Assembly (NCBI GenBank): GCA_018268195.1
Contig: JAFDWZ010000024.1
Span: 1 to 64,000, forward strand
From: Bacteroidota bacterium
Lineage (GTDB): Bacteria; Bacteroidota; Bacteroidia; AKYH767-A; OLB10
Reading direction: 5' to 3'
DNA length: 64,000 nucleotides
Position numbers and translations under genes: made by a program
Notes under the pieces: model-generated
Told to the model about the DNA's origin: nothing
The model's database searches: none
The model's input: only the letters and a program-made list of their open reading frames with translations
In this document: positions 18,316 through 64,000 of the stretch, one piece after another
Layout: every line of letters begins with the position of its first letter
Position numbering within the stretch: the stretch's first letter is position 1

Positions 18316-18340
18316 TCGCGCACTTTTAATAAATTAAAAA

Positions 18341-18379
18341 ACAAAAGCCATGATTCACTTCATGGCTTTTGTTTTTTTT
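18341..18379 (+). terminator. Rho-independent terminator after the M36 protease
   Basis: A perfect 13-bp stem (ACAAAAGCCATGA with its complement), 6-nt loop, followed by a run of seven T. It starts 25 nt after the stop codon. Confidence 0.92.
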
Positions 18380-24058: not shown

Positions 24059-24085
24059 AACACTGTTGAATAAATATTTCAAAAG

Positions 24086-24121
24086 CAAGAGGCTGCCAAA
24101 TTAATGGCAGCCTCTTGTTTT
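24086..24121 (+). terminator. Rho-independent terminator after serC
   Basis: A perfect 13-bp stem (CAAGAGGCTGCCA with its complement), 6-nt loop, then TTTTAT. Confidence 0.9.
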
Positions 24122-28636: not shown

Positions 28637-28681
28637 ATAAAATGATTGTACATAATTCTAAAGGTCAATGATAGGAATTAA

Positions 28682-28715
28682 ATCGGATACTTTGAAAAAT
28701 TTCAAAGTATCCGAT
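28682..28715 (-). terminator. Perfect 16-bp inverted repeat, possible terminator
   Basis: Arms of 16 bp (starting ATCGGATACTTTGAAA) around a 2-nt centre, 12 nt after the stop of the aromatic-rich lipoprotein gene. The T run that follows on the minus strand is weak (TTAATT), so it may act as a processing or stabilising hairpin instead. Confidence 0.55.
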
Positions 28716-28727
28716 AATTCAACTGTT

Positions 28728-31041: not shown

Positions 31042-31190
31042 ACTACACTTCATGATTATGAATTTATTTTTCGATGGAAAGGATAAAACACCCGATGAAA
31101 TGGCAAATTCTTCATTTTGGCAAATATTGCACTTACTGATTTTGTCAATTTAACATTTTTAAGTATCATACATTCGTTTTTTGCTTTAAC

Positions 31191-31225
31191 TAAAAATGCC
31201 TGTTGAATTGAATTCAACAGGCATT
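31191..31225 (-). terminator. Rho-independent terminator after the 206-aa lipoprotein
   Basis: Perfect 15-bp arms (starting AATGCCTGTTGAATT) separated by one base; the practical loop is larger because the centre is self-complementary. On the minus strand the stem runs into TTTTTAG. It starts 26 nt after the stop codon. Confidence 0.8.
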
Positions 31226-31251
31226 CTTAGTTAATTATTATTTGATTGGTA

Positions 31252-48650: not shown

Positions 48651-48918
48651 TGGTTTGAACAAAATACATAAAACTCATTCATTATAAATAACAAGTTTTT
48701 TATTTACCCTCTGATTATTGCTTGTGATAGAACAAACATAAACTCCATTACTCAACTTCGGCAATGAAATAAATTGAAGTGTACTCCATTGAGGCAGGTT
48801 TTGAGAGTAAACGGCTCTGCCGTTTATATCAAATATTTCTAATTTACCTGATTTGTTTTGCGGCAACAGATACATGATTTTAAAATTTCCATTGTTAGGA
48901 TTTGGGCTTATAGTTATT

Positions 48919-48952
48919 CCCCTCTCCTTTGGAGAGGGGTTAGGGGTGAGGC
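48919..48952. repeat. Palindromic dispersed-type repeat inside copy 5 of gene A
   Basis: A perfect 9-bp palindrome (CCCCTCTCC, TTT, GGAGAGGGG) followed by TTAGGGGTGAGG. Translated in the gene frame it reads SLTPNPSPKERG, replacing the VKDLAEHDFKFKIF-type linker of the other copies. I recall this peptide recurring in unrelated bacterial ORFs, which would mark a dispersed repeat, but cannot verify it here. Confidence 0.6.
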
Positions 48953-50123
48953 TGCTCGTTATAGTATCACATGCACTCCCCACCAAACGACCTAAATAAT
49001 AATTAGGATGATTAGGAATACCCCTAAAAAAACAACTTGTATGAATGTTGTGTAAATTAACAGTGCAGGCTATGCCTGCACTATCTGGATAATCCATTTC
49101 ATGTAAATCTAAAACACTGCTGCCTGATGAAATATAAATCTTGCCGTTGGCGGCAAGATAAAGTGAATTAAAATCAGTATAAAACACAGGCGGTGCTGAA
49201 AGGAAAGACATCATTGGTCGCAACTGTTTGAAGAGTGGCCCCAATATTCGGAGCATCTGTATCAACCTGATAAATATGTTCAGAAGTAGAAAAATACAAG
49301 TAACGTGAATCAGAGGAAAACATTGTTCCAAAACCAATTGTACTATCTGAATAATTAATAACTGTATCTAAAATAAAATCTCCTGTACACCTGTCAAAGT
49401 TCATTATATTTATGTATAAATTCCAATACATTCCCTGAATATATCCATTCCTGAAAGCAAATTTTTCACCGTCAGGTGAAAAAACAGGTTGTCCAGCCCA
49501 ACCTGCATACGCCTGTAATTGCAAATTTTTAATGCCAATATAATTAACCCCATTGGGGGTGAGTAAAAATTCATGTATCAAACTCCCATCCCATGAGATA
49601 GCAATTATCCACCAATCCCTACCGTTAGCATGCCTGCAAGCCGTAATTCCAGCACCAAACGAGCCTGATAAAGCAATATTATTTTTACTGATTATCTCTC
49701 CCAATCCACCATTTAACGAAACATCTGTTATTGTATAAAAAATATTAGGGCTATCTCCTGTTGTATAATCAAGGGTTTGGTGAAATAAAATATATTTATT
49801 TGAATCATCAGGCATGGGTAAAATAATATTTGCATAAGGCATTGGTAATCCGGCAGGAAAATCATCTGCAAATTGACCGGGATTAAGTCCCTCTCCATTT
49901 AGCATGGTATCGCCCGTAGCATCAGCTATAAAAATACCGTTGCTGCTCATTAATATATTCCCGTTTTCATCGGAAATATTTGCTTGTGTGTCCATGAAAG
50001 GAATAGTACGAGTTTCAGGAATAATGGAATAAGAGGTATCTGTAAAAGACATTCTCGCTTTGGCATTATATCCTAAGAAAAATGTGCTGTTATACCCTTG
50101 CGGTAAACACTCTTTTGATAACA

Positions 50124-50162
50124 ATAAAATCGTAAGACATAAAAAATGTCTTACGATTTTAT
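50124..50162. repeat. Signal-peptide inverted repeat, A copy 5
   Basis: Perfect 17-bp arms (ATAAAATCGTAAGACAT and its complement) around five A, spanning 22-60 nt after the start codon at 50184. Confidence 0.92.
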
Positions 50163-50180
50163 ATTTTTTAATCAGTTCTG

Positions 50181-51464
50181 TCATTTAACAATTACCAATT
50201 TTTTAATTGTTTCAAAATTATTTGTATGAACTTTTACAGAATATACGCCTTGCGAAAACTTACCCAAATCAATTATCTTGTGCTTATCCTTGCAATTCAT
50301 TTCATCCATTAAAACTATCTCTCCCATCACATTTTTTAGTTCAATATAGCAAACACCTTCCAAGTTCCCACTCAAAAATATTTCAACTTTGTCATTTGCG
50401 GGATTTGGTTGAATAATGATTTTATTTTGTTCAACATTTTTTATTGAGTCTTTTGCAAAACGATAAATTCCACTTTGCAAACAAATATTCGCATCGTCAT
50501 AAAAAATTGAATCATTAATTAATGCAATAAATGTACGTGCTCGCTCTACTGCTGCACCTCCAACATAAGGGCATTGATTGGCTATTGCAAATATTCCTGA
50601 AAAGTTGTCAATGAGATAGTGAATATCATTGCCTCTTTCAATGTAATTGATTTCAATTTCATTCATTAATTTACTATTTGTTTCCGGTTGCTCTCCGTTT
50701 ATAACATAATCATTTTCCAATTTTGCATTATCAAGGTCATCCTTTATTATTGCCCCTCTTGTTATATTCAAATTGTTTATAGTTTGGTTTAAGAAACCAA
50801 TTTTGTACAACCATGCTGTTTTTAATGAATCTGCCTCAATTGTGCCTACTCCTGTTCCACTGCTGTACATAGTTACACTATCAGTAAATAAACGGATTTG
50901 TAAATTACAACTGTCAATTAATGCCATTAATGTAGAATCATACATATACGCAGCCTTTAAGTATTCGTCTGCATTATACAAATACGCAACAGGCTCGCCC
51001 TGATTCTCTAACATAAACTGAATGTAAGTGGAATCACTTACCCATAATGCGGAATCATTGGCAAGTTCGGCATAAATGTATTCTCTTGCTATTGCCTTTG
51101 ACTCATCCGAAACTTCTTCTGAATCAAAAATTCCCTGTTCAATTAGATTATGAATGGTAGTGTCAGCCATTGCAGGCGGTGGCGAACTGCATATAGTAGA
51201 AGAATAACAGTGATAGGTGTTTCCTGTTGTATCGGGTTGAAACCATGAACTTGGCGTAACAACAGGATTATAAACTGAACCTAAATTTGAATTTACTGTA
51301 AAAAGGGAAAATGAAACATAAAAACTTGGCGATAAATTAATTCCACCAAAGCCGCTCACGGTTGGCAAGTTCCATTTATTGCCATTATGCGGCTGCGTTC
51401 CCATGTAAGTAGGATTGGTTGGCGAGCCTGTGTTCAGATACAAGCCAACGTAATGCGTATTCAT
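50181..51464 (-). CDS. Module gene B, copy 5: 5'-truncated T9SS protein
   Basis: A 427-residue frame homologous to the C-terminal part of the full-length B protein at 59290-62040. The homologous frame continues upstream of the nominal ATG to about 51561 (CNFTDSTKTGVYFGG, matching CNSVDSTYRGIYFGG), only 3 nt from the stop of the preceding A gene. It therefore lacks the signal peptide and nearly all of the beta-helix. It retains the helical region, the QCPYVGGAAVERAR motif (near 305) and the sorting domain (IQPNPANDKVEIFLSG to KLVIVK). Without a signal it cannot be exported. Its stop overlaps the next A start as ATGA. Confidence 0.8.
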   Translation of the reverse strand: MNTHYVGLYLNTGSPTNPTYMGTQPHNGNKWNLPTVSGFGGINLSPSFYVSFSLFTVNSNLGSVYNPVVTPSSWFQPDTTGNTYHCYSSTICSSPPPAMADTTIHNLIEQGIFDSEEVSDESKAIAREYIYAELANDSALWVSDSTYIQFMLENQGEPVAYLYNADEYLKAAYMYDSTLMALIDSCNLQIRLFTDSVTMYSSGTGVGTIEADSLKTAWLYKIGFLNQTINNLNITRGAIIKDDLDNAKLENDYVINGEQPETNSKLMNEIEINYIERGNDIHYLIDNFSGIFAIANQCPYVGGAAVERARTFIALINDSIFYDDANICLQSGIYRFAKDSIKNVEQNKIIIQPNPANDKVEIFLSGNLEGVCYIELKNVMGEIVLMDEMNCKDKHKIIDLGKFSQGVYSVKVHTNNFETIKKLVIVK

Positions 51465-51564
51465 TTCATTACCTCTGAATTTAGTTCCTAAATTATTGCC
51501 TCCAAAATAAACGCCTGTTTTTGTGCTGTCGGTAAAATTACAGATAAAATAACATGGTGTTATT

Positions 51565-53037
51565 TTAGTTATTTATAACTGCAATTTTTTTACTCACTCT
51601 TTTGTCATCAGAAGTAAGCAAACAATTATAAATTCCGTTTGCAAGTTTAGGCAGTTTGAAACTTTGCACATTGCTCCATTGTGGCAAAATATATTTGAAA
51701 ACAACTTTTCCTGTTACATCATATATTTCAAACAAACCTTGTTTGTTTTGAGGTAAAAGGTAACTGATATTTAAAATATTATTGGTAACAGGATTGGGAA
51801 ATATTTTAAACTTAAAATCATGTTCTATTTCATTTATGCCCGTTGTTAAACACTGACAACTACTTGTAGTATCACACCCTAAATAATAATTGGGGTGGTT
51901 TGGAACAGCCCTAAAACTCCACACACCTAAATTAATGGCGTGTTGCTGTAAATCACAAGCTATGCCTGCGCTGTCAGGGTAATTCATTTCATGTATATGC
52001 TGAACACCGCTTCCTGATGTAATGTAGATTTTCCCATTAGCAGCTAAATAGGCAAACAAAAAAGTTGTACACCATGGTGGATTGGGATAACAAAATCCAT
52101 CATAAGTGGCAACGGTATCTACAATCAATGAGTTTAAATTAAATTGAAAAATGCGATTAGTATTTACTGCATAAGCAAGTTCAGAATTATTTGAAAATGC
52201 AAATCCCCAAAGAAGAGAAGTGTTTACAAAACCAACCCTTGCATTACTGAATTGCCCTGAACATCGGTCAAAGTCAAATACACATATAAAGCCACTATCG
52301 GGCTGGTAAGGAACATAAGTAGTATATCCGAACTTTTTACCGTCAGGTGAAAAAGTTGGTTGGGTAACATTACCCCAAGCAAGAGGAACATTTAATTTTT
52401 GAGTTGTAATACTTACTAATCCCTGATTAGTAAGCAACATTTTAAAAGCAATATCACTTGAATCTTTTATTGCCACCACCCACCAATCTCTGCCGTTAGC
52501 ATGGCGACAGGCAGCAAGCCCCCAATTTAAAGTATCCTGAAATGCAATTACGTTTTTTTTTATTGAATCCACACCACCCAAACCGCCATTCTGTGCCATA
52601 TCAATTACACTATAAAATACTTCATAAGTTGGATTATATGTTCCGTTCCATGTTGCAGAATGATGAAACAAAACATATTTTGTTGAATCACCGGGATAAG
52701 GAAGAAATATATTAGCATGAGGCAACAGAAGACCTTTTGGATAAGAACTAGTAAAAGTGTTGGGATTTAAACTATCACCATTCAACATTACGTTGCCTGT
52801 TGCATCAGCAATCCATACACCGTTACTGCTCATCAGAAAATTCCCACTCTTATCACTTATAGTCGCCTCTGTGCCTTCAAACCCCATGAGGCGGTTTTCT
52901 TGTGTTAAAACATAGTTTGTGGAATCAAATACCACTCGTGCACGAACAGCCCAATTACCAAACCCAATTAACCAAGTGTTGTTCATTTGCCCTTGCGCGA
53001 GCAAGGGCATGAACAATACAAAAAGCAGTTTTTTCAT
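51565..53037 (-). CDS. Module gene A, copy 4: propeller-like T9SS-exported protein
   Basis: A 490-residue intact copy. The signal peptide is short (MKKLLFVLFMPLLAQG). The mature part starts with NNTWLIGFGNWAVRAR, then ISDKSGNFLMSSNGVWIADATG, ACRHANGRDWWVVAIK, FSPDGKKFGYT, FSNNSELAYAVN and LAANGKIYITSGS. These are repeated WD40/PD40-like blades, as in other Bacteroidota surface propellers. The sorting domain runs from FPNPVTNNILNISYLL to IAVINN. Over 235 bp of this domain it differs from copy 3 at only seven positions. It overlaps the B fragment upstream as ATGA. Role unknown; probable surface or secreted binding protein. Confidence 0.86.
   Translation of the reverse strand: MKKLLFVLFMPLLAQGQMNNTWLIGFGNWAVRARVVFDSTNYVLTQENRLMGFEGTEATISDKSGNFLMSSNGVWIADATGNVMLNGDSLNPNTFTSSYPKGLLLPHANIFLPYPGDSTKYVLFHHSATWNGTYNPTYEVFYSVIDMAQNGGLGGVDSIKKNVIAFQDTLNWGLAACRHANGRDWWVVAIKDSSDIAFKMLLTNQGLVSITTQKLNVPLAWGNVTQPTFSPDGKKFGYTTYVPYQPDSGFICVFDFDRCSGQFSNARVGFVNTSLLWGFAFSNNSELAYAVNTNRIFQFNLNSLIVDTVATYDGFCYPNPPWCTTFLFAYLAANGKIYITSGSGVQHIHEMNYPDSAGIACDLQQHAINLGVWSFRAVPNHPNYYLGCDTTSSCQCLTTGINEIEHDFKFKIFPNPVTNNILNISYLLPQNKQGLFEIYDVTGKVVFKYILPQWSNVQSFKLPKLANGIYNCLLTSDDKRVSKKIAVINN
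51588..51822. repeat. Near-identical 235-bp direct repeat, copy in A4
   Basis: Matches 53481-53715 without gaps, with seven differences by my count (about 97 percent identical). It covers the sorting-domain codons. The rest of the two genes is more diverged, which suggests recent duplication or gene conversion. Confidence 0.9.
52979..53016. repeat. Signal-peptide inverted repeat, A copy 4
   Basis: TTGTTCAT-TT-GCCCTTGC pairs with GCAAGGGC-ATGAACAA: 16 bp with a 2-nt bulge and a 4-nt loop (GCGA). It spans 21-58 nt after the start codon at 53037. Confidence 0.85.
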
Positions 53038-53465
53038 TTCACAATTATGAGTTTGGTTACATTAATAGCATTATCATTTACACTAATTTGAACATTATAC
53101 ATTCCGTTAAAAAAGCTTGTTGTATTTATTCTAAACTGCTTTTTATTGCAATCAAACGATTGCTCAAACACTATCTTGGAATAAACATCAGTTATTTTAA
53201 CTCTGCAAATCCCCTCATAATTTTTATTTAAAATAACATCTGCATAGCTGTTCGCTGGATTTGGAATTAAATCTATGTCATTAAGAACTTTATTATTCTT
53301 TAACTCATTTTGTATTCTGTAATAACCCTGTTGTAAGCAAATATCATCATCAAAAGCAATGCTATCATTCAGCATTTCTGCAAATCCTCTTGCAATATAC
53401 ACAGCTTTACCGCCACTAAAAGGGCACTGTTCTGCTATTGATAATATTTGCTGATAATTATTCAT
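53034..53465 (-). CDS. Module gene B, copy 4: C-terminal fragment
   Basis: A 143-residue frame that corresponds only to the last part of the full-length B protein. It begins NNYQQILSIAEQCPFSGGKAVYIARGF (NYSEIYSIAQQCPYAGGPAVEKARSF in copy 2) and ends with the sorting domain (IPNPANSYADVILNK to KLIIVK). The ATG overlaps the stop of the preceding A gene by 8 nt, and the homology begins at that junction. So the fragment looks like a deletion product fused next to the A gene. It has no signal peptide, and export is not expected. Its own stop overlaps A copy 4 as ATGA, so it may survive as a translational coupling leader. Confidence 0.78.
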   Translation of the reverse strand: MNNYQQILSIAEQCPFSGGKAVYIARGFAEMLNDSIAFDDDICLQQGYYRIQNELKNNKVLNDIDLIPNPANSYADVILNKNYEGICRVKITDVYSKIVFEQSFDCNKKQFRINTTSFFNGMYNVQISVNDNAINVTKLIIVK

Positions 53466-54990
53466 TTAGTACTGCTACCTTTTTACTCACTCTTTTGTTA
53501 TCAGAAGTAAGCAAACAATTATAAATTCCGTTTGCAAGTTTAGGCAGTTTGAAACTTTGCACATTGCTCCATTGCGGCAAAATATATTTAAAAACAACTT
53601 TTCCTGTTACATCATATACTTCAAACAAACCTTGTTTGTTTTGAGGTAAAAGGTAACTGATATTTAAAATATTATTTGTAACAGGATTGGGGAATATTTT
53701 AAATTTAAAATCATGCACATTGATTTCATTTATTCCTGTTGTTGGAACAAGACACGGACAACCACTTGTGGTATCACATCCTAAATAATAATTTGGATGA
53801 TTTGGAACAGAGCCTCTGTGGATAGCACCCATAGGGGTAGGAATTACGTGTTGTTGAAAATCACAAGCCGTTCCTACGTTGTCAGGAAAATTCATTTCAT
53901 GGATATGCTGCACTCCGTTTCCTGATGTAAGATATATTTTGCCATTAGCGGCAAGATAAAAATTGAAAAATGTAGTAGGGCAGCACCATGAAAAAGGGGA
54001 ATTATAACCGTCATAAGTGGCAATGGTATCTAAATTATACGTGTTCAAATCCAACTGATACAATTTATCGCCCGCACAAGTATAAACCAACTCCGAGTTA
54101 GGCGAAAAAGCCAAACCCCATAAATAACCCCTGTTTACATATACAGGCGTATGAGTTGTAAACATCCCCGAACACCTGTCAAAATCAAAAATTAAAATAT
54201 AAAAACTATCAGGCTGATACGGAACATAATTTGTATAAGCAAATTTTCTTCCATCAGGTGAAAAAGTTGGCTGCGTAACATTACCCCACATAAGAGGAAC
54301 ATTAAGTTTTTGAGCGGTAACACTTGTCAAACCAACATCTGTAAACAACATTTTAAAAGCAATATCACTTGAATCTTTTATTGCCACGACCCACCAATCT
54401 CTGCCGTTGGCATGGCGGCAAGCTGCCATACTCCAATTTAATGTGTCCTGAAACGCAACATTAAATTTTTGCAATGAATCCACTGCGCCTAAACCGCTAT
54501 CCATAGTCATGTCTATAATGCTGTAATTTATTGAATAAGCAGGATAATAAAGTCCATTAAATGCTAACGAATCACGGAATAAAATAAATTTTGTTGAATC
54601 ACCGGGATAAGGAAGAAAAAGACAGCCGTAGGGTATTGCAAGTCCATCAGGGTAGGCATTTATAAATGCGTCATATCCTAAAAAACTTCCGTTTTTCATG
54701 GTGTCGCCCGTGCTATTCGCTATCCAAGCCCCGTTACTACTCATTAATAAATTTCCGTTTACATCAGAAATGTTAGCCTGTGTAAAAGCCTGAAAAGGGA
54801 TTTTTCTTTGTTCTGCAAATATATTATAAGAAGTGCTATCAAAAGTCATTCTGGCTTTTATGTAATTAGGTGAATAATCATATCCCAACAACCAATTATG
54901 GTTATAACCTTGCGATAAACTGTGATTTGAAATCAAAATCATAAGCAGTATTATAGTACTGCTTATTATTTTGGATTTTAATTTCTTCAT
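53458..54990 (-). CDS. Module gene A, copy 3: propeller-like T9SS-exported protein
   Basis: A 510-residue intact copy. The signal peptide is MKKLKSKIISSTIILLMILISNHSLSQG in outline. The mature protein shows GYNHNWLLGYDYSP, ISDVNGNLLMSSNGAWIA, ACRHANGRDWWVVAIK, FSPDGRKFAYT, LAANGKIYLTSGN and HPNYYLGCD, then a sorting domain (FPNPVTNNILNISYLL to VAVLNE). Conserved Cys pairs (CDTTSGCPC) precede the sorting domain, as in copy 4. It overlaps the B gene upstream as ATGA and overlaps the next B fragment by 8 nt. Function unknown, probably surface-exposed. Confidence 0.87.
   Translation of the reverse strand: MKKLKSKIISSTIILLMILISNHSLSQGYNHNWLLGYDYSPNYIKARMTFDSTSYNIFAEQRKIPFQAFTQANISDVNGNLLMSSNGAWIANSTGDTMKNGSFLGYDAFINAYPDGLAIPYGCLFLPYPGDSTKFILFRDSLAFNGLYYPAYSINYSIIDMTMDSGLGAVDSLQKFNVAFQDTLNWSMAACRHANGRDWWVVAIKDSSDIAFKMLFTDVGLTSVTAQKLNVPLMWGNVTQPTFSPDGRKFAYTNYVPYQPDSFYILIFDFDRCSGMFTTHTPVYVNRGYLWGLAFSPNSELVYTCAGDKLYQLDLNTYNLDTIATYDGYNSPFSWCCPTTFFNFYLAANGKIYLTSGNGVQHIHEMNFPDNVGTACDFQQHVIPTPMGAIHRGSVPNHPNYYLGCDTTSGCPCLVPTTGINEINVHDFKFKIFPNPVTNNILNISYLLPQNKQGLFEVYDVTGKVVFKYILPQWSNVQSFKLPKLANGIYNCLLTSDNKRVSKKVAVLNE
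53481..53715. repeat. Near-identical 235-bp direct repeat, copy in A3
   Basis: Partner of 51588-51822, offset 1893 nt with no gaps and seven differences by my count. Confidence 0.9.
54930..54975. repeat. Signal-peptide inverted repeat, A copy 3
   Basis: A perfect 10-bp inner stem (ATAAGCAGTA, 54941-54950, with TACTGCTTAT, 54957-54966) extends outward by two further 5-bp blocks after one mismatch and one bulged base. The loop is 6 nt. It lies about 15-60 nt after the start codon at 54990. It is the least perfect of the five. Confidence 0.82.
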
Positions 54991-57464
54991 CGTACTATTA
55001 TTAACTTAAATTGTTCAGATACATGAACCGACTGATTAACCTTAACCGTATAAATACCTTCACTTAAATTTTTAACATTTAAAGTGTGGATTTTTTGATT
55101 ACAGTCTAATTCTTTTGATAAAGTAAGTTTTCCTACAACATCATAAAACAATATTTCACAAATTCCGCTCATATCATCGCTTAATGTAATTGTTATTTTT
55201 TCGCTTGCTGGATTAGGAACTATCTTAATATTTCCTTTCGTTTCCTCTTTTGTTTTCCCTGTTTCAGCAGCCTTTCTATAACCAGCTTGTGCGCAGACAG
55301 TGGCATCATCATATTCAACACTGTCATTTATGAGAGCAATATAATTTCTTGCTTTATACACTGCTTTACCTCCCACGTGCGGACACTGAACAGCTATATC
55401 AAAAACCTGACTGTATCTGTTTTGCAAAGCAGTCATGCCGCCTGTTTCATAGTCTATTTCTACATCATTCATTATTTGTTCGTATTCATCAGGCGCATTG
55501 TTTGTAATGATTGAACTGTTTGCAGTTTGTACATTTGATAATGCTTGTTCCTTATCATTGTTAATTTGATTAAACAAAGATACCTTATCTTGCAACACAA
55601 GATTTAATTGCTGTATTAATATTTCTCTTTGGTCTATCAGATTTAATGTTGAATCCGCAGCAACCATGCTGTCTAAACTGTTAATACTTTGAATTATGCT
55701 GTCCGCTAAATTATTCAATGCCGCGAGGTTTTGCATTTCCGTTTCAGAAATGCTGTTGGCTTCTTTTATTTCTTTATTTACATCATATAGCTGCCCTGTA
55801 ACATTATTTTCATTTGCAGCTAAAAACGCGACAAGTGAAAAATTGGAATTAACCAACGAATCATTTTCCTTTAAGTCCTTATACAAATAATTCTTCGCCA
55901 TTATTTTTGATTCGTCTGTAAATTCTGCCGTTTCCAAACTATCCTTTGCAATGGTAAGTTGCAATGCCGTTGCAGCATTTCTTTCATGCGTTTCATCTGT
56001 ACATAATACATAACCTGTACATTCAAATTCATTCCCTGTTTGTGGTTGCATCCATCCTGTATTATTTGCAGGTATTGTAGGTATGTATGCTCCGCCATTA
56101 CTGAAATCTATTAAAAATGCAGATAAAGCTAAATTTGAAGGCGGATTACTATTCAAATTATTTGCACCGTAATTATTAAATGAGCCCACCCAAAGATTGC
56201 CTGCATGAGCCTGTGTGTCTATAACTGCATTGGTGTATAATCTCAATCCTTCAAAGTGTCTTTTCATTTCAGTGCCTCTAAATCTCGTGCCTGTGCAAAC
56301 GCCTTCAAAATAAACTCCTATATAAGTTGAATCCACATGATTGCAACTCATCAGATTGTTAGTGCTGTGCGAAATACTGATTCCCCTATTTTGATAACTC
56401 ACAAACTGATACCTTCCCTTAATGCTGTTGCAGCTTACCTGCGAGCTGTCGCAGCCTGTGAGTGAAATTCCGTTAGTAGTGTTACCCGTTAACCTTATGT
56501 TATTGTTTATCACTTTTACTTTGCAGGCAGCATTGGCTACTATGCCACTGCCGCTTTGTGCTTCTACTTCATTGTTTTCTATTTTATAATTTCCCGTACT
56601 CAGACTCTTGGATAGGACATTTATACCTACTGAGTTTCCGTTGGCCGTTACTTTAATATGATTGCCCGATGCAATCATTACACCGTTTTCACTGTTCTGC
56701 CATTCTATGCCCTTTTTTGCCGCCTCAATATCGCAATTGGTGATGGTTGTAGTCATGCCTGCTTCATTACATCGGATAGTAAACACTCCTGTAAGGTTTA
56801 CATTTCGCATACTTATGTTGTTTACCGTTGCATTGGTCCACTCTGTATAAACACCCCATTCGCATGTGTCTATAGTTATGTCGTGATTGCTTAATGGTAA
56901 TAAAGTCAATTTGCCTGCTGTTGACCCGGTGCTGCTTTCTGATACTATGGCAGATCCCTTGTGGGTAGCATTGCCGTACAGGGGCCCTCCCTTCCTTATA
57001 TTGTTAAACTTACAGTTGCTCACCAACATTACCGAGCGTTTGGCATATATTCCCCAGTTGCTATTGTAAAACTCGTTGCGGTGCTGCTTGCCTACTATGT
57101 TCATCACCACATCATTCACTTCTATGCAGGCTCGCGGCAGGCTTTCGTGTGCAGGCTGCCCTGTGTAGTCAGGCTTAAATGCAGTTGCGTACAATCCGAA
57201 TTTACAACCGTCAATGCTTGCCTGTATGTTGTTGCCGCCTGTGAGCGGTGGCGTGTAAATGCTGCGCACACAATCTACCACACGGCTGTCGCGCATATCG
57301 TACACCGATCCGTTCAGAGCAGTTATGCCATTCTCTGCATCGCGTATGATACTGCTTTCGCTCATTACCAATTTTGAATTCTTTTCAAGTGTAACACCTC
57401 TCCACATATCAATACACGCCTCTATAGTTGTGCCGTAAAGTGATAATACGCCTCCTCCAACCAC
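54987..57464 (-). CDS. Module gene B, copy 3: N-terminally disrupted beta-helix T9SS protein
   Basis: An 825-residue frame from a GTG, homologous to B copy 2. The homologous frame continues upstream to about 57525 (VQSLTLINCQVY), then meets a TAA at 57539-57537. The signal peptide and about 70 residues of the helix are missing. The remainder contains right-handed beta-helix turns (residues 1-440, repeated N.I....GI....), a helical region (about 520-700), the QCPHVGGKAVYKAR motif and a sorting domain (VPNPASEKITITLSD to KLIIVR). Export looks impossible without the signal, so it may be nonfunctional. The stop overlaps A copy 3 as ATGA. Confidence 0.8.
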   Translation of the reverse strand: MVGGGVLSLYGTTIEACIDMWRGVTLEKNSKLVMSESSIIRDAENGITALNGSVYDMRDSRVVDCVRSIYTPPLTGGNNIQASIDGCKFGLYATAFKPDYTGQPAHESLPRACIEVNDVVMNIVGKQHRNEFYNSNWGIYAKRSVMLVSNCKFNNIRKGGPLYGNATHKGSAIVSESSTGSTAGKLTLLPLSNHDITIDTCEWGVYTEWTNATVNNISMRNVNLTGVFTIRCNEAGMTTTITNCDIEAAKKGIEWQNSENGVMIASGNHIKVTANGNSVGINVLSKSLSTGNYKIENNEVEAQSGSGIVANAACKVKVINNNIRLTGNTTNGISLTGCDSSQVSCNSIKGRYQFVSYQNRGISISHSTNNLMSCNHVDSTYIGVYFEGVCTGTRFRGTEMKRHFEGLRLYTNAVIDTQAHAGNLWVGSFNNYGANNLNSNPPSNLALSAFLIDFSNGGAYIPTIPANNTGWMQPQTGNEFECTGYVLCTDETHERNAATALQLTIAKDSLETAEFTDESKIMAKNYLYKDLKENDSLVNSNFSLVAFLAANENNVTGQLYDVNKEIKEANSISETEMQNLAALNNLADSIIQSINSLDSMVAADSTLNLIDQREILIQQLNLVLQDKVSLFNQINNDKEQALSNVQTANSSIITNNAPDEYEQIMNDVEIDYETGGMTALQNRYSQVFDIAVQCPHVGGKAVYKARNYIALINDSVEYDDATVCAQAGYRKAAETGKTKEETKGNIKIVPNPASEKITITLSDDMSGICEILFYDVVGKLTLSKELDCNQKIHTLNVKNLSEGIYTVKVNQSVHVSEQFKLIIVR

Positions 57465-57535
57465 TATAATCTGCGCAGCTGGGTAGGTGTAAACTTGGCA
57501 ATTGATTAGTGTAAGGCTTTGGACCTCGCAAAAAA

Positions 57536-57695
57536 ATTATTCATCTTGTTTTTTATTTTGCAGCGCAAGCAATAAATCTTTTGGCTTGGTTCTGTCCTGC
57601 TCTCGCCCCGGTGCATGGCACCGCTCTACCGCAAAATCCTTGCTGGTCTCCATCAGGGCTAATTTTTATATGTTCTGTTTTCATTTTATTCAGCC
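57536..57695. other. Foreign-looking segment at the 5' break of B copy 3
   Basis: About 160 bp between the terminator of A copy 2 and the point where B homology resumes. Its core (57590-57635) is much more GC-rich than the surroundings and contains a perfect 6-bp hairpin (CGGTGC, ATG, GCACCG at 57609-57623). It matches no part of the other modules. Two minus-strand frames are open across it, one in phase with the B fragment. It could be an inserted repeat or a remnant of a mobile element; I cannot name it. Confidence 0.45.
57537..57653 (-). CDS. Possible 38-aa ORF in phase with B copy 3
   Basis: ATG at 57653 opens 38 codons (METSKDFAVERCHAPGRE at the start, NKKQDE at the end) and stops at the TAA that lies directly before the frame of the B fragment. 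Composition is Lys/Arg-rich, unlike the array proteins. Alternative frame 57553-57774 is also open but runs through a terminator. Coding status is doubtful; noted because only one stop codon separates it from the B reading frame. Confidence 0.25.
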   Translation of the reverse strand: METSKDFAVERCHAPGREQDRTKPKDLLLALQNKKQDE

Positions 57696-57696
57696 A

Positions 57697-57728
57697 ATAA
57701 AAAAACCTTCCGTTTTTTTCGGAAGGTT
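57697..57728 (-). terminator. Rho-independent terminator after A copy 2
   Basis: A perfect 9-bp stem (AACCTTCCG with its complement), 7-nt A loop and a run of T on the minus strand, 38 nt after the A copy 2 stop. It divides the array into an upstream and a downstream transcription unit. Confidence 0.9.
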
Positions 57729-57766
57729 CTTTCAAGTCCCCCTTTTGCGGATGATTCAGTAGGAGA

Positions 57767-59293
57767 TTACTCATTATAAATTACAAGTTTTTTATTTACT
57801 CTCTGACTGTTGCTTGTAATGGAACAAACATAAACTCCGTTACTCAATTTAGGCAATGAAATAAATTGCAGTGTACTCCACGGAGGCAAATTTTGAGAAT
57901 AAACTATTCTGTCGTTTATATCAAAAATTTCCAATTTGCCTGATTTGTTTTGCGGCAACAAATACATGATTCTGAAATTGCCGTTGTTGGGATTTGGAAA
58001 TATTTTAAATTTAAAATCATGTTCTGCTAAATCCTTAACGCTCGTAAGCGTATCGCATGGACTACCCACCAAACGACCTAAATAATAATTTGGATGTACT
58101 GGAACACTACCTGCAACAAACTTTGGTAAGTGTAAACTGTTTTTATGTACATTGCATAACATACTAGAGCTATCAGGATAATTTATGTAATGTAGATCAA
58201 CAACACTGCTTGTTGATGTAATATAAATTTTACCGTTTGCAGCCAAATACATGGCGTGAAAATTTGTATAAAAGGGCGGGATGGGTGAAGGGAATGGTGG
58301 TGCAGTATCAGTAACAGCCACAATTTGCAAACTATTTTGTGCCGTAAGTGAATCAGTATCTAATTGAAATAAATGCAGATATGAATCAAAATAAAGAAAT
58401 CTTGAATTGGAAGAAAAAGACATTCCGAATCCAACATAAGTATCACTATAATCCATTATGGTATCTAATGTAAACGAACCATCACATCTGTCAAAATGAA
58501 ACAATCGTAAATCCTGATTCCATGTATTAACAACAGATAAAGCATTTCTATATGCAAATTTGGTCCCATCAGGTGAAAAAACAGGTTGTCCTGCCCAGCC
58601 ACCATAAACAGGAACATTCAGTTTTTGAAATCCTGCATACTGAACAGAATCTGGGGTTAATAGAAATTTATAAATAGTATCCGCCTTGTCGCTGAAAGCA
58701 ACTACCCACCAATCTCTGCCATTGCCATGCTTGCATGCTGCCATGCCATGCCCGAATGTGCCTGAATGCGCAACATTGTTTTTACTTATTACATCTCCTT
58801 TTCCGTTATCAAGCGTTTTATTTATTGTGGTAAAAAAAATTTCAGGGGAACTAAGAGATATGCTGCCTGCTGTTTGATGAAATAAAATAAACCTATTCGT
58901 GTCATCAGGCATGGGCAAAATTATATTTGAATTTAATATTGGTAAACCAATATTTTTGTAATTATCAACCGCCCAACCCGGATTTAATCCTGTTCCGTTA
59001 GGCATGGTGTCACCTACATTGTTTGCAATCCATATACCATTACTGCTCATCAGGAAATTTCCGTTTTCATCACTTATATTTCCTTGTGCTCCAAAAAACG
59101 GCATTTTTCTTACTTCGGTTATAAGTGTTGCATTTGATGAATCAATGTTTAATCTCATTAATGTGTCAGATGTATCATAACCTAGCATCCATGTATGATT
59201 GTAACCTTGTGCAAATGAAACAGAATTTATAAACAAAGTAATCAGCCAAAGACTGATTACTTTGTTTATAAATTTAATGAAATTTATTTTCAT
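57767..59293 (-). CDS. Module gene A, copy 2: propeller-like T9SS-exported protein
   Basis: A 508-residue intact copy. A signal peptide (about 1-29, ending VSFAQG) precedes GYNHTWMLGYDTSD, ISDENGNFLMSSNGIWIA, ACKHGNGRDWWVVAFS, WAGQPVFSPDGTKFAYR, FSSNSRFLYF and LAANGKIYITSTS. The sorting domain is FPNPNNGNFRIMYLLPQNKS to KLVIYNE, the same type as copies 1 and 5. It begins inside the stop of the full-length B gene (ATGA) and is followed by a strong terminator. This and B copy 2 are the only module with both genes complete within the window. Likely surface-attached or secreted; ligand unknown. Confidence 0.88.
   Translation of the reverse strand: MKINFIKFINKVISLWLITLFINSVSFAQGYNHTWMLGYDTSDTLMRLNIDSSNATLITEVRKMPFFGAQGNISDENGNFLMSSNGIWIANNVGDTMPNGTGLNPGWAVDNYKNIGLPILNSNIILPMPDDTNRFILFHQTAGSISLSSPEIFFTTINKTLDNGKGDVISKNNVAHSGTFGHGMAACKHGNGRDWWVVAFSDKADTIYKFLLTPDSVQYAGFQKLNVPVYGGWAGQPVFSPDGTKFAYRNALSVVNTWNQDLRLFHFDRCDGSFTLDTIMDYSDTYVGFGMSFSSNSRFLYFDSYLHLFQLDTDSLTAQNSLQIVAVTDTAPPFPSPIPPFYTNFHAMYLAANGKIYITSTSSVVDLHYINYPDSSSMLCNVHKNSLHLPKFVAGSVPVHPNYYLGRLVGSPCDTLTSVKDLAEHDFKFKIFPNPNNGNFRIMYLLPQNKSGKLEIFDINDRIVYSQNLPPWSTLQFISLPKLSNGVYVCSITSNSQRVNKKLVIYNE
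59224..59274. repeat. Signal-peptide inverted repeat, A copy 2
   Basis: Perfect 22-bp arms (59224-59245 and 59253-59274) around a 7-nt loop, 19-69 nt after the start codon at 59293. Both arms are coding, within the signal-peptide region. Confidence 0.94.
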
Positions 59294-62040
59294 CTTATAA
59301 TTACCAATTTACTACTTAAAAAAGTAATATTATTAACGTTAATTTTTACACTATAAACTCCTTGTGCAAAGTTGGAAACATCTATAACTTTTTGTTTTTC
59401 CACACAATTCATTTGACTGAATAAAATTTCTTCACCCATTGCATTTTTGATTTGAATATAGCATAACCCTTCAAAATTACCTTTCAGAATTATGCTTACT
59501 TCGTTGTTTGCTGGGTTGGGTTGCACTATTATTTGATTGGGTACTACACTTCTTATTGTATCATCTGCAAGTCGGAATATTCCATTTTGCAAACATCGGG
59601 CATCATCATTGTAAGCCATTGTATCGTTCAGTAATGCAATGAAAGATCGGGCTTTTTCCACTGCCGGACCTCCGGCATAAGGACATTGCTGTGCAATACT
59701 GTAAATCTCTGAATAGTTGGCTGAAAGGTATTGAACGCTATTTCCACTTTCTAAATAATTTGTTTCAATTTCATTTATAATCTTTGCATTTTCCTGTGGC
59801 AGATTATCCGGTAATACTATATCATTTATTAATCGTGCATTTATTAAATTATTAGTCATGCTTGCCTCTCTCAGAATCTCAATATTCCGAATGGTTTGAT
59901 ATAGAAAAGAAATTTCAGTTGTCAGTAGTTCAACATCACCTGAGCAACTATTTTCACGGATACAATTAATACTGTCAGCTAATAACTCTATCTGTTGCTT
60001 TGCACTATCAATAAGATTGATGTAAACAGAATCATAATTATAAGCTACTCTTAGATATTCTTCTGCATCATATAAATATTCTGTTGCGTCCCCTGTTTTT
60101 TCAGCCATAAATGCAGCATAAACGGAATCTTGTTCAATCAAAACGGAATCTTCTTTTAGTTGACGGAATAAGTATTCCTCTGCTATTGCCTTGCTTTCAT
60201 TCACATATCCATTTGTTTCTAACGTGCCATTGGCTATCATTGCGTTTAGTAAAGAATCTGTTAATGTAACAGGTGTTGTTGAACATACCAATGAGTTGGA
60301 ACAACGGAAAGTGTTGCCAGAAAGATGAGAGAACCATCCCTGAATATTATTAACAGGCATATACACGCTTCCTATTATGGTATCAACAAAAAAAGTAGAT
60401 AATTGGAATCCCTGTGTATTTGCATTATATGCCTGAAAGCTGATACTGGTATTATTCCACCTGTTACCATAAAGAGTTTGCGAACTGATAACAGCTGTAT
60501 TATTCAAATACAAGCCGTTATAATGATGATGAAATTCCGTAGCTTTTAAATATGTGTTTGGATTAAGCCCCCCAAAATAGATACCTCTGTATGTACTGTC
60601 CACACTGTTGCAATATATGGATGTATTATAACTCAAATTTCCAATGTTTATTCCATTTGAGTTGCTTAATCCTACAGTGTAATTTCCGGTAATGGTGTTG
60701 CAACTAACACTTGTTGAAAGATTGGTTTGTGCATTTATACCGATACCATTTCCTGCAATGCGAATGTTATTAAACTTCACATTTGCTCTGTTCAACACAC
60801 CCGAATATATGCCGTAGGTTGCATTATTAAGTTGTATTGTGTTGTTATTTACATTGTACCGTACAGGAGCAAATAAATTTGTTTCTCTCAACTGGATTCC
60901 ATACCTCGCAGGTTGTATAGGAACATTAGGTAGATTTACTCCGCTAATAGTAATGTTATTATATGATAAGTAAATTAACTTAGCAAATGGATTTGAAATA
61001 AATGATAGTCCATTGCTGCTTGCAGTAATTACGGAATTTGACACTTGTGCCTTCTGCAAAAAGCCAATATTTGTTCCGTAAACACCATGCGTTACATTTA
61101 AAATATGAATGTTATCAGCATACAATGCAGATTTATTGACATATATACCCCTGTAACAATTCTCAACTGTGTAATAGCTCAATGCTTCGGGCAGCACCGT
61201 AAGGCTTCCCGTGTGTATGTCGCCAACAGGCATTCCCACGCTTACTATTGCTGTTCCTCTGTAGGGTTCTGAATAAAAAGTATCGTAACCAATGTTGTTG
61301 AACTTACTCCTTTTCACTGTAACAATACTGCTTATAGCTACAATACCTGTATTCAGTTTTTCAAACTCATTCAGGTTTGCATCACCAATAGTAGTTATCA
61401 TATTGGTCATATCTATTCCTGCTTTTGGTATTGTGCCATGTGGTGTTTGCCCTGCATAGTCTGGTTTAAAATTTGGGCTTTGCAATTTAAATTTACTTCC
61501 GTCCACTTTCAACGCAATAGAATTATAGCCACCACCCGGGCGTGCTGGTATCTTCAGTCCTGTTACACAATCGTAAATTTCACTTTGCAGAATTTCAACT
61601 TGCGATTGATCTAAAGCATAAATTCCGGTGTTTGCATCTCTTAATGTGCTTCCGTTTAGTTTTATTTTCCCTTTTGCAAGTACATTTATCCCTCTCCACA
61701 TCGTGTCGCAACTTTGGATGGTGGTGTTGTTCAGGTTCAGCACTCCATTGCTCTGAACAATTATTTGCCCGCCTGCACCAACATACACCATGCAGTTGTT
61801 CAACGTAAGTGTGCCGTTCACATAATACGTTCCTGCTACAAATACACTTAAATTACTTAGTGTAGCGTTTCCCGAATAAGTGTTGTCTAAAAACGTGGTG
61901 TCGGAGGTGGTGCAGGGATTTATAATTGTAACACAAACAGCATTTCCTTCAAAAAATAAATGTTTTGCTGTAAGCTCATAAGACATGAACATCAAAGTAC
62001 ATACTACAACTGTTTTACATATCCATGCCGAAGGTTTCAT
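59290..62040 (-). CDS. Module gene B, copy 2: full-length beta-helix T9SS-exported protein
   Basis: A 916-residue protein and the only complete B copy. The signal peptide covers about 1-25. Residues about 40-560 are repeated short-strand turns with Asn ladders and N.I....GI patterns, typical of a right-handed parallel beta-helix of the pectate-lyase/NosD type. No catalytic site is evident. A helical region (about 600-800, with QQIELLADSINCIREN and ETNYLESGNSVQYL) contains the array-wide motif QQCPYAGGPAVEKARSF near 795. The sorting domain runs from QPNPANNEVSIILKG to SKLVIIR. It starts 9 nt after A copy 1. It may be a surface adhesin or glycan-binding protein; function unproven. Confidence 0.87.
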   Translation of the reverse strand: MKPSAWICKTVVVCTLMFMSYELTAKHLFFEGNAVCVTIINPCTTSDTTFLDNTYSGNATLSNLSVFVAGTYYVNGTLTLNNCMVYVGAGGQIIVQSNGVLNLNNTTIQSCDTMWRGINVLAKGKIKLNGSTLRDANTGIYALDQSQVEILQSEIYDCVTGLKIPARPGGGYNSIALKVDGSKFKLQSPNFKPDYAGQTPHGTIPKAGIDMTNMITTIGDANLNEFEKLNTGIVAISSIVTVKRSKFNNIGYDTFYSEPYRGTAIVSVGMPVGDIHTGSLTVLPEALSYYTVENCYRGIYVNKSALYADNIHILNVTHGVYGTNIGFLQKAQVSNSVITASSNGLSFISNPFAKLIYLSYNNITISGVNLPNVPIQPARYGIQLRETNLFAPVRYNVNNNTIQLNNATYGIYSGVLNRANVKFNNIRIAGNGIGINAQTNLSTSVSCNTITGNYTVGLSNSNGINIGNLSYNTSIYCNSVDSTYRGIYFGGLNPNTYLKATEFHHHYNGLYLNNTAVISSQTLYGNRWNNTSISFQAYNANTQGFQLSTFFVDTIIGSVYMPVNNIQGWFSHLSGNTFRCSNSLVCSTTPVTLTDSLLNAMIANGTLETNGYVNESKAIAEEYLFRQLKEDSVLIEQDSVYAAFMAEKTGDATEYLYDAEEYLRVAYNYDSVYINLIDSAKQQIELLADSINCIRENSCSGDVELLTTEISFLYQTIRNIEILREASMTNNLINARLINDIVLPDNLPQENAKIINEIETNYLESGNSVQYLSANYSEIYSIAQQCPYAGGPAVEKARSFIALLNDTMAYNDDARCLQNGIFRLADDTIRSVVPNQIIVQPNPANNEVSIILKGNFEGLCYIQIKNAMGEEILFSQMNCVEKQKVIDVSNFAQGVYSVKINVNNITFLSSKLVIIR

Positions 62041-62049
62041 TGGGTAAAG

Positions 62050-63579
62050 TTAACGAATCACCACCAATTTTTTATTTACCCTCTGATTATTACTTGTAAT
62101 ACTGCAATTATAAACTCCATTTGCAACACGTGGCAATGAAACACTTTGCAACGTACTCCACGGAGGCAAGTTTTGCGAATAAACTACCCTGCCGTTTATA
62201 TCAAATATTTCTAATTTACCCGATTTGTTCTGTGGCAACAAATACATGATTCTGAAATTGCCGTTGTTGGGGTTTGGAAATATTTTAAATTTAAAATCAT
62301 GTTCTATTTCAGCAACAGAAGTTAAGCTATCACAAGGGCTACCTATTTTTCTGCCGAGATAATAATTAGGATGATTGGGAACAGCTTGCCCATGGTAACA
62401 AGGCAATAAAACAGAATGTTGCTGAACGTTACAAGCCATACCAATGTTGTCAGGGTTTTCAATGGCATGAATATAATGAGTAGTATTTCCTGTGGTTAAA
62501 TAAATTTTTCCGTTAGCTCCTAAATACGCTAAATCAAAAGTAGCATACACAGGCGGAAAAGGGTCTGCAAAGGAGTCATTTACCGCCACATTAATTAAAT
62601 GAGGATTAATATAAGCAGAATCGGTATTAAACTGATAAATGTTCCAAACAGAGGCAACATAAAGTAATTTTGAATTAGGTGAAAAAGCGTTTGCAAAAGC
62701 AACTGTGCTATCTGGTATATTAACAACAACAGGGTTTGAAAAAGTTCCACTGCACCTGTCAAATTCAAAATAACGCATATTGGTAATGTATTGTGTAGGT
62801 GGATTGGGATAAGGCGTTCCATGTATATATGCAAATTTTTCTCCATCTGGGGAAAAATTCAACTGATTTGCAAATCCCAAATACGCAGGTACAGATAGAT
62901 ATTGTTTGCCGATATACTGAATTGTATCATGGGTTAATAAAATTTTATTTATGGTATCACCATATTCGTTCATTGCTACAACCCACCAATCTCTGCCATT
63001 GCCATGTTTGCAAGCTGAAAGCCCCCATCCAAATAAACCTGTTGTAATGACATTATTTTTGCTAATAACTTTACCTAAACCACCATTCTTTGTTATATCA
63101 ATCACACTAAAATAAATTTCTGTGGATGATAATACAGGGACAGAATAATTTCCAGTTTGATGAAACAAAACATATTTATTTGAATCATCGGGCATAGGTA
63201 GTATAATATTTCCATTGGGTAATGATAATCCATCTGGGTCAGATGAAGTAAATGAATTTGGGTTTAAGCCACTTCCATTCTGCATAGTGTCGTTTGTTGC
63301 ATCTGCAATCCAAACTCCATTGCTACTCATCAAAAAACTTCCGTTTTGGTCTGAAATTGTGGCTTGTGTACTCTTTGCAAATGGCATTTTCCGTTGCTCA
63401 CTTAATACAGTTATTGAGGTCGAATCAATCAATATTCGACCTTTAGTTGAACCGGGTGAAAAATTATACCCAATAAGCCAATTATGATTTAAGCCTTGTG
63501 AATAAACATTTATTGATAAAAGCATTAGAAACAGCATGGTGCTGTTTCTAATGCTTTTATATGAGAAGTTATAAATCAT
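62050..63579 (-). CDS. Module gene A, copy 1: propeller-like T9SS-exported protein
   Basis: A 509-residue intact copy. A signal peptide (about 1-28, ending INVYSQG) precedes LNHNWLIGYNFSPGS, ISDQNGSFLMSSNGVWIADATN, ACKHGNGRDWWVVAMN, NFSPDGEKFAYI, FSPNSKLLYVAS and LGANGKIYLTTGN. The sorting domain is FPNPNNGNFRIMYLLPQNKS to KLVVIR. It overlaps the B gene upstream as ATGA and is 9 nt from B copy 2 downstream. Together with copy 2, it suggests one transcript running B1-A1-B2-A2 to the terminator at 57697. Confidence 0.88.
   Translation of the reverse strand: MIYNFSYKSIRNSTMLFLMLLSINVYSQGLNHNWLIGYNFSPGSTKGRILIDSTSITVLSEQRKMPFAKSTQATISDQNGSFLMSSNGVWIADATNDTMQNGSGLNPNSFTSSDPDGLSLPNGNIILPMPDDSNKYVLFHQTGNYSVPVLSSTEIYFSVIDITKNGGLGKVISKNNVITTGLFGWGLSACKHGNGRDWWVVAMNEYGDTINKILLTHDTIQYIGKQYLSVPAYLGFANQLNFSPDGEKFAYIHGTPYPNPPTQYITNMRYFEFDRCSGTFSNPVVVNIPDSTVAFANAFSPNSKLLYVASVWNIYQFNTDSAYINPHLINVAVNDSFADPFPPVYATFDLAYLGANGKIYLTTGNTTHYIHAIENPDNIGMACNVQQHSVLLPCYHGQAVPNHPNYYLGRKIGSPCDSLTSVAEIEHDFKFKIFPNPNNGNFRIMYLLPQNKSGKLEIFDINGRVVYSQNLPPWSTLQSVSLPRVANGVYNCSITSNNQRVNKKLVVIR
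63516..63560. repeat. Signal-peptide inverted repeat, A copy 1
   Basis: Perfect 21-bp arms (63516-63536 and 63540-63560) around TGG, 19-63 nt after the start codon at 63579. Its sequence is unrelated to the repeats in copies 2-5. Confidence 0.95.
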
Positions 63580-64000
63580 CTTTTAATTACAAGTTTAACA
63601 GTTGAATATTTATTGTTGTTTAATTCTATTTTAACATAATAAACACCAACAGACAATTTTGAAATATCCAATGTGTGTTGCTGTTTTTTACAATCAAGCA
63701 TTGCGGATAAAACAGGTTGTGATAAAATATTTTCAATATTTATTTTGCAAACTCCTTCTTTAATACCCAAAATCAATACAGTTACTTTGTTGTTAGCAGG
63801 ATTGGGTATTAATTGTACATTTGAAATTATATTTGAATTATTTTGTGCTGAATCTGTTCTACCTATTCTGTAGATATCACTTTGCAAGCATACGTTATCA
63901 TCATCATAAAGTATGGAATCATTGATTAAAGCAATCAACACTCTCGCTTTAAAAACAGCCTGACCTCCGGCATAAGGGCATTGCTGTGCAATGTTCATAA
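63576..64000 (-). CDS. Module gene B, copy 1: C-terminal part, 5' end beyond window
   Basis: The visible 140 residues correspond to the end of the B protein: NIAQQCPYAGGQAVFKARV, ALINDSILYDDDNVCLQ and a sorting domain (IPNPANNKVTVLILG to KLVIKR). The frame is still open at base 64000, so the nominal ATG at 63998 is probably internal and the gene may be full length upstream. The stop overlaps A copy 1 as ATGA, the same junction as in the other four modules. Confidence 0.82.
   Translation of the reverse strand, partial: MNIAQQCPYAGGQAVFKARVLIALINDSILYDDDNVCLQSDIYRIGRTDSAQNNSNIISNVQLIPNPANNKVTVLILGIKEGVCKINIENILSQPVLSAMLDCKKQQHTLDISKLSVGVYYVKIELNNNKYSTVKLVIKR

Follow-up and report, generated by a model that had tools for sequence, protein, structure and literature searches.

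Inverted repeats at the starts of an arrayed family of bacterial secreted-protein genes change in concert, probably through fold-back template switching

Here, we report that strong inverted repeats occupy codons 4-24 in all five A genes of a Bacteroidota gene array; in three of these genes the repeat is perfect, with arms of 17, 21 and 22 bp. Across related genomes, the arms of these repeats remain paired as their sequence changes, they change in concert even where three arms are present, and they are strongly enriched at A genes. We infer template switching as the cause, and we suggest a model in which the arms are made and kept perfect by fold-back template switching and the resulting mRNA stem at A starts is also favored. 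On balance, we regard this combined model as probable.

The window, i.e. the whole stretch of 64,000 nucleotides that was analysed, is contig C16 in a draft genome of 3.0 Mb from a Bacteroidota bacterium. On its minus strand, B and A genes alternate, and in all five B/A pairs the two reading frames overlap by 4 nt. The A proteins have a length of ~500 aa and the B proteins of ~430-920 aa, and most carry a T9SS sorting domain at the C-terminus; one B protein is beta-helix-like, while the A proteins give weak PD40/beta-propeller matches. The genes of the array, based on simple ORF calls, are the following:

63576-63998, minus strand: 3' part of a B gene upstream of A copy 1, 4-nt overlap with A
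62050-63579, minus strand: A gene copy 1, 509 aa, T9SS C-terminal sorting domain
59290-62040, minus strand: B gene before A copy 2, 916 aa, T9SS sorting domain, 4-nt overlap
57767-59293, minus strand: A gene copy 2, 508 aa
54987-57464, minus strand: B gene coupled to A copy 3, beta-helix/NosD-like with T9SS sorting domain
53458-54990, minus strand: A gene copy 3, 510 aa
53034-53465, minus strand: short B-like reading frame coupled to A copy 4
51565-53037, minus strand: A gene copy 4, 490 aa
50181-51464, minus strand: B gene coupled to A copy 5, 427-aa frame
49174-50184, minus strand: A gene copy 5, 5' part, 336 aa; C-terminal part in another frame at 48675-49337

Copy 5, the last A gene of the array, is split over 48675-50184 with its N-terminal two thirds and its sorting domain in different frames; the split probably reflects either breakage of the gene or an error of assembly. 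The draft assemblies break within A genes and, as a consequence, the arrays are incomplete.

An inverted repeat early in each of the five A genes had been reported in a first-pass annotation of the window. We re-derived the coordinates and the pairing and confirm all five:

63516-63560, minus strand: hairpin of A copy 1, arms 63540-63560 and 63516-63536, 21 bp perfect, loop of 3 nt
59224-59274, minus strand: hairpin of A copy 2, arms 59253-59274 and 59224-59245, 22 bp perfect, loop of 7 nt
54927-54981, minus strand: hairpin of A copy 3, arms 54957-54981 and 54927-54950, 22 Watson-Crick pairs with A.C, A.G and a 1-nt bulge
52976-53019, minus strand: hairpin of A copy 4, arms 53001-53019 and 52976-52996, 18 pairs with a 2-nt bulge and one A.C
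50124-50162, minus strand: hairpin of A copy 5, arms 50146-50162 and 50124-50140, 17 bp perfect, loop of 5 nt

Counted from the A of the ATG, the arms start at +20, +20, +10, +19 and +23 in copies 1 to 5, respectively, and the right arm of copy 4 codes for the conserved mature start AQGQMNNT. The arms had also been described as unrelated in sequence between copies; this holds inside the window, but not for orthologues in related genomes, the arms of which align and co-vary.

Codon shuffles and a genome control rule out a chance origin of the hairpins and thereby bear out the earlier statement that chance cannot give perfect arms of 21-22 bp. When codons were redrawn from A genes with the amino acids fixed, the observed score was almost never reached (0/300 for copies 1-4 and 1/300 for copy 5); the MFE z-scores of the A starts range from -2.0 to -5.0. 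The genome control covered 929,536 bases (0.93 Mb, ~31% of the window's own genome) with 728 predicted genes. In this sequence, nine in-gene hairpins with a score of at least 45 lie near a predicted ATG, and seven of these are in A genes. The remaining two are in an O-antigen ligase gene, to which we return below, and at L217, which was rejected as a further start hairpin because it is probably intergenic with a start codon that is probably mis-called. More generally, the strong hairpins in this genome are mostly intergenic, many with a GGCTG-like core, while those near starts are nearly all in A genes. A hairpin is not a general property of signal peptides either: a score of 33 was reached at 10 of 13 intact A genes vs 1 of 211 other signal-peptide/TM-like starts (Fisher p = 4e-14), and a general occurrence of equally long repeats in the signal-peptide codons of non-array genes, raised in the annotation as a finding that would speak against its reading, was not seen among these starts. 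Finally, in 1.56 Mb of the own and related genomes, hairpins with a score of at least 39 were found at 22 A starts, in three A bodies, near two B starts and near four starts of 960 other genes; both B-start hairpins represent one shared weak match outside the usual position.

Aligned orthologues bear out the covariation-like signature that had been proposed from the window. All 16 double-changed core pairs are still Watson-Crick pairs vs 231 of 568 (41%) control column pairs taken from the same sequences (Fisher p = 8e-7, an optimistic value in that the pairs counted are related by descent and some sequences were compared more than once). For instance, copy 2 and L068 differ by two A-T to G-C compensated changes, copy 5 and L080 by three compensated changes, A-T to C-G among them, and L245 and L253 by compensated changes that include A-T to T-A. 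A wider count gave 28 double changes with pairing retained; of these, 10 are transversions, which cannot be bridged by a G.U intermediate. If selection acted on the RNA fold alone, G.U would be expected to exceed A.C. The standing mismatches comprise seven G.T and seven A.C, and single changes away from a Watson-Crick pair gave 11 G.T and six A.C, small counts with which RNA selection is still compatible.

Four loci (L062:7560, L079:2503, L070:2789 and L081:5376) have three alternating arms (+,-,+). An identical short insertion/deletion in all three arms separates L062/L079 from L070/L081, and a G-to-A change that sets L081 apart from L070 likewise recurs in all three arms, the third arm of L081 being less certain due to an NN assembly gap between arms 2 and 3. 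Because only two arms can pair at once, two-arm pairing alone does not require that three arms change in concert. Moreover, the hairpins of copy 4 and L072 pair the variable signal peptide with the conserved mature start, one in each arm; copying of the conserved arm into the variable one would produce this pattern. Altogether, the three-arm change, the double transversions, the conserved/variable arm pairs and the lack of a clear G.U excess point to template switching, and palindrome-forming copying is the best-supported generator among the roles listed in the annotation. Inverted loops, a signature of template switching, were not seen in the orthologue alignments. The divergence of the aligned pairs is too great for a single switch event to be captured, and the three-arm change is not assigned to one branch. 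As a separate observation, the three arms of these four loci allow two mutually exclusive hairpins in an attenuator-like arrangement.

In the model that we favor, short-range fold-back template switching during DNA replication would allow the nascent strand to copy one arm into the other, and the arms would thereby evolve in concert while their sequence drifts. Signal-peptide codons would be the place where fold-back copies survive, being a sequence-free region in which the phase 3 antisense is usable as an h-region, and an mRNA stem just beyond the ribosome that ends B or starts A would be favored as a mild control of translation or message stability. The arms are in phase 3, i.e. with third position facing third position, in 17 of 21 cases, a bias that is also shared by descent. 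Among signal-peptide/TM-like starts of the own genome, the phase 3 antisense contains stops in 22% of cases vs 62-63% in the other phases, and it is most often hydrophobic (14% vs 5% and 1%). Thus, when n-region codons are copied by fold-back, the product can often act as an h-region. This property is a filter and not the cause, because other signal-peptide genes lack hairpins; likewise, template switching alone leaves the restriction to A genes and the near-absence from other signal-peptide genes unexplained. A stronger version, in which the stem is a sequence-free regulatory element at the translation start of secreted-protein genes, selected for nothing but pairing and position, with arms constantly rewritten by template switching and the n-region antisense supplying the hydrophobic core, is one that we put forward tentatively, as possible rather than probable.

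The restriction to A starts, the repeated gain at a similar distance from the ATG and the absence from promoter-proximal copies suggest that an RNA stem at the B/A junction may be selected for. Structure around the start tunes translation in F. johnsoniae, where the stretch between -20 and +20 shows little pairing (PMC6847099). The majority of A stems start at ~+19 to +26, immediately beyond this low-pairing zone, and we propose that a stem so placed could hold up A translation in its first steps or shield the B message at its end. By contrast, a role in pausing for export, as listed in the annotation, is unlikely because, given the usual ribosome footprint, a ribosome that meets the stem at ~+20 would have made only few residues.

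Within the genus, hairpins are present in 22 A genes with intact starts, and all 22 overlap the upstream frame by 1 or 4 nt; the hairpin-less A genes comprise 11 coupled and about nine uncoupled ones. This association between coupling and hairpin has a p-value of 4e-4 before correction for descent and is not significant in a tree-corrected test (median p 0.25), because the promoter-proximal copies share one leader module and thus represent a single event. Of the coupled genus copies, 22 of 33 have a hairpin; the stem is therefore not universal, which weakens the RNA part of the favored model. Outside the genus, most A homologues lack a hairpin, with one case each in G007, G022, G012 and G016. 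Hence, homologues without pairing, which the annotation had named as evidence against its reading, do exist, among them a third of the coupled genus copies, even though the pairing is kept in the other two thirds. On an A tree built without the signal peptide, the hairpin state changes at least 12 times. In copy 4, L072, L064, L245 and L253, the hairpin lies elsewhere relative to the mature protein and at a similar distance from the ATG, and this shift argues for separate origins.

A start hairpin is also present in the gene for an O-antigen ligase (Wzy_C), a protein unrelated to A, in G000 (L264, G000:C2:5744), G001 (L265) and G002 (L268), while the G003 homologue has none. In the ligase hairpin, a C-G pair is replaced by G-C through compensating, synonymous changes at the third positions of two codons, and the G002 copy is frameshifted at the hairpin. 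No upstream gene overlaps the ligase gene with the hairpin; thus, overlap is not required. Together with the outcome of the tree correction, this led us to reject a strict dependence of the hairpin on B-A overlap.

These data bear on the explanation that the hairpin is purely a selected RNA element, with a stem that either regulates translation of A or shields the B message at its 3' end, and with pairing kept by ordinary compensatory mutation and no special mutation mechanism. Its position immediately past the stretch covered by a ribosome at the overlapping stop/start, the overlap of every hairpin gene in the genus with an upstream frame and the near-absence from B starts and other genes are all in line with this explanation. 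It accounts poorly, however, for double changes by transversion without a clear G.U excess, for three arms changing in concert, for the loss of significance of coupling upon tree correction and for the uncoupled ligase hairpin, and we consider it unlikely. The converse explanation is that the hairpins are neutral coding palindromes, generated by template switching in a mutational hotspot of the array, tolerated by signal peptides and functionless. Although frequent gain and loss, the perfection of the arms and precedents in Nematomorpha mitochondria and yeast coding DNA (PMC6649704, PMC8604942) fit this explanation, we consider it less likely still, as neutral palindromes would not be expected to be nearly missing from the B genes and A bodies of the same arrays. 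Finally, a DNA site (a cruciform or folded single strand) that is read by structure by an array-rearranging recombinase, as in integron attC, would match the paralogue arrays, the constant structure with varying sequence and the fusion of a leader module to different A bodies, but is highly improbable in view of alignments that, judged by eye, show no box common to the arms of different copies, leader copies that have no hairpin at the apparent recombination join, and B-400, signal and mature regions whose rates of divergence between orthologues are alike, without a break at the hairpin.

The leader module is an observation in its own right. The promoter-proximal A genes L073 (G002:C44), L086 (G001:C2), L088 (G001:C3) and L126 (WAS_Bin_9), which lack a hairpin, share a ~150-bp module that is 91-99% identical from -64 to +85, comprises the upstream region, the ATG and the signal peptide, and diverges abruptly at the cleavage site into A bodies of different clades. 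It looks like an expression leader that recombined with different A bodies, and was not found in the G000 or G003 assemblies. No viral or mobile A relatives were found in viral contigs.

In the literature searched, we found no description of a hairpin in the signal-peptide codons of T9SS or coupled genes, and, to our knowledge, a downstream stem is not part of the known termination-reinitiation mechanism. The B/A overlap of 4 or 1 nt itself resembles the ATGA/TAATG overlaps at which termination-reinitiation coupling occurs (PMC6728339). The favored model has several parallels. In Nematomorpha mitochondria (PMC6649704), perfect inverted repeats in coding sequence have midpoints common to species while their sequence changes, arm identity is maintained, overlapping repeats form competing hairpins, and template switching has been proposed; however, those repeats have a mean of 43 bp and are scattered through conserved respiratory genes, whereas the A hairpins are 14-27 bp and confined to the first ~25 codons of one bacterial secreted family. 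Similarly, template-switched RNA hairpins have stems that are perfect at once and multi-base compensatory changes for which no G.U intermediates are needed (PMC8794818), but in rRNA and microRNA genes, while the A hairpins are at protein-coding starts and no single event is resolved. In yeast coding DNA, template switching homogenises arms within coding sequence with amino-acid change (PMC8604942), there as strain-level events over many genes and here position-fixed in one family. Small inverted triplications (PMC13334657) have the same DUP/INV/DUP order as the four three-armed loci, with units of ~150 bp in yeast and tumours vs ~20 bp in A starts.

The A hairpins provide a compact test bed in bacteria for asking how stems of this length can remain perfect although their sequence does not stay the same. 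If arm-to-arm copying is true, then covariation, which usually counts as proof that an RNA structure is under selection, would need a mutational null model in bacteria too, and inverted copying of n-region codons would be one way in which new signal peptides arise.

Intrinsic terminators or attenuators are a weak fit only for the A hairpins: a loose sense-strand terminator pattern (a G+C-rich stem followed by a T run) is matched by copies 2 and 3 only, and the GGCTG-like core and A/T ends usual in strong intergenic hairpins of the own genome are missing. Such strong intergenic hairpins, with near-perfect arms, A/T-rich ends and often a GGCTG-type core, lie in the window at 18336-18377, 24081-24121 and 31186-31234 as well as at L204, L206 and L215; these are probably terminators. 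At 28675-28720 of the window, a 20-bp near-perfect palindrome without a GGCTG-type core lies between two minus-strand genes.
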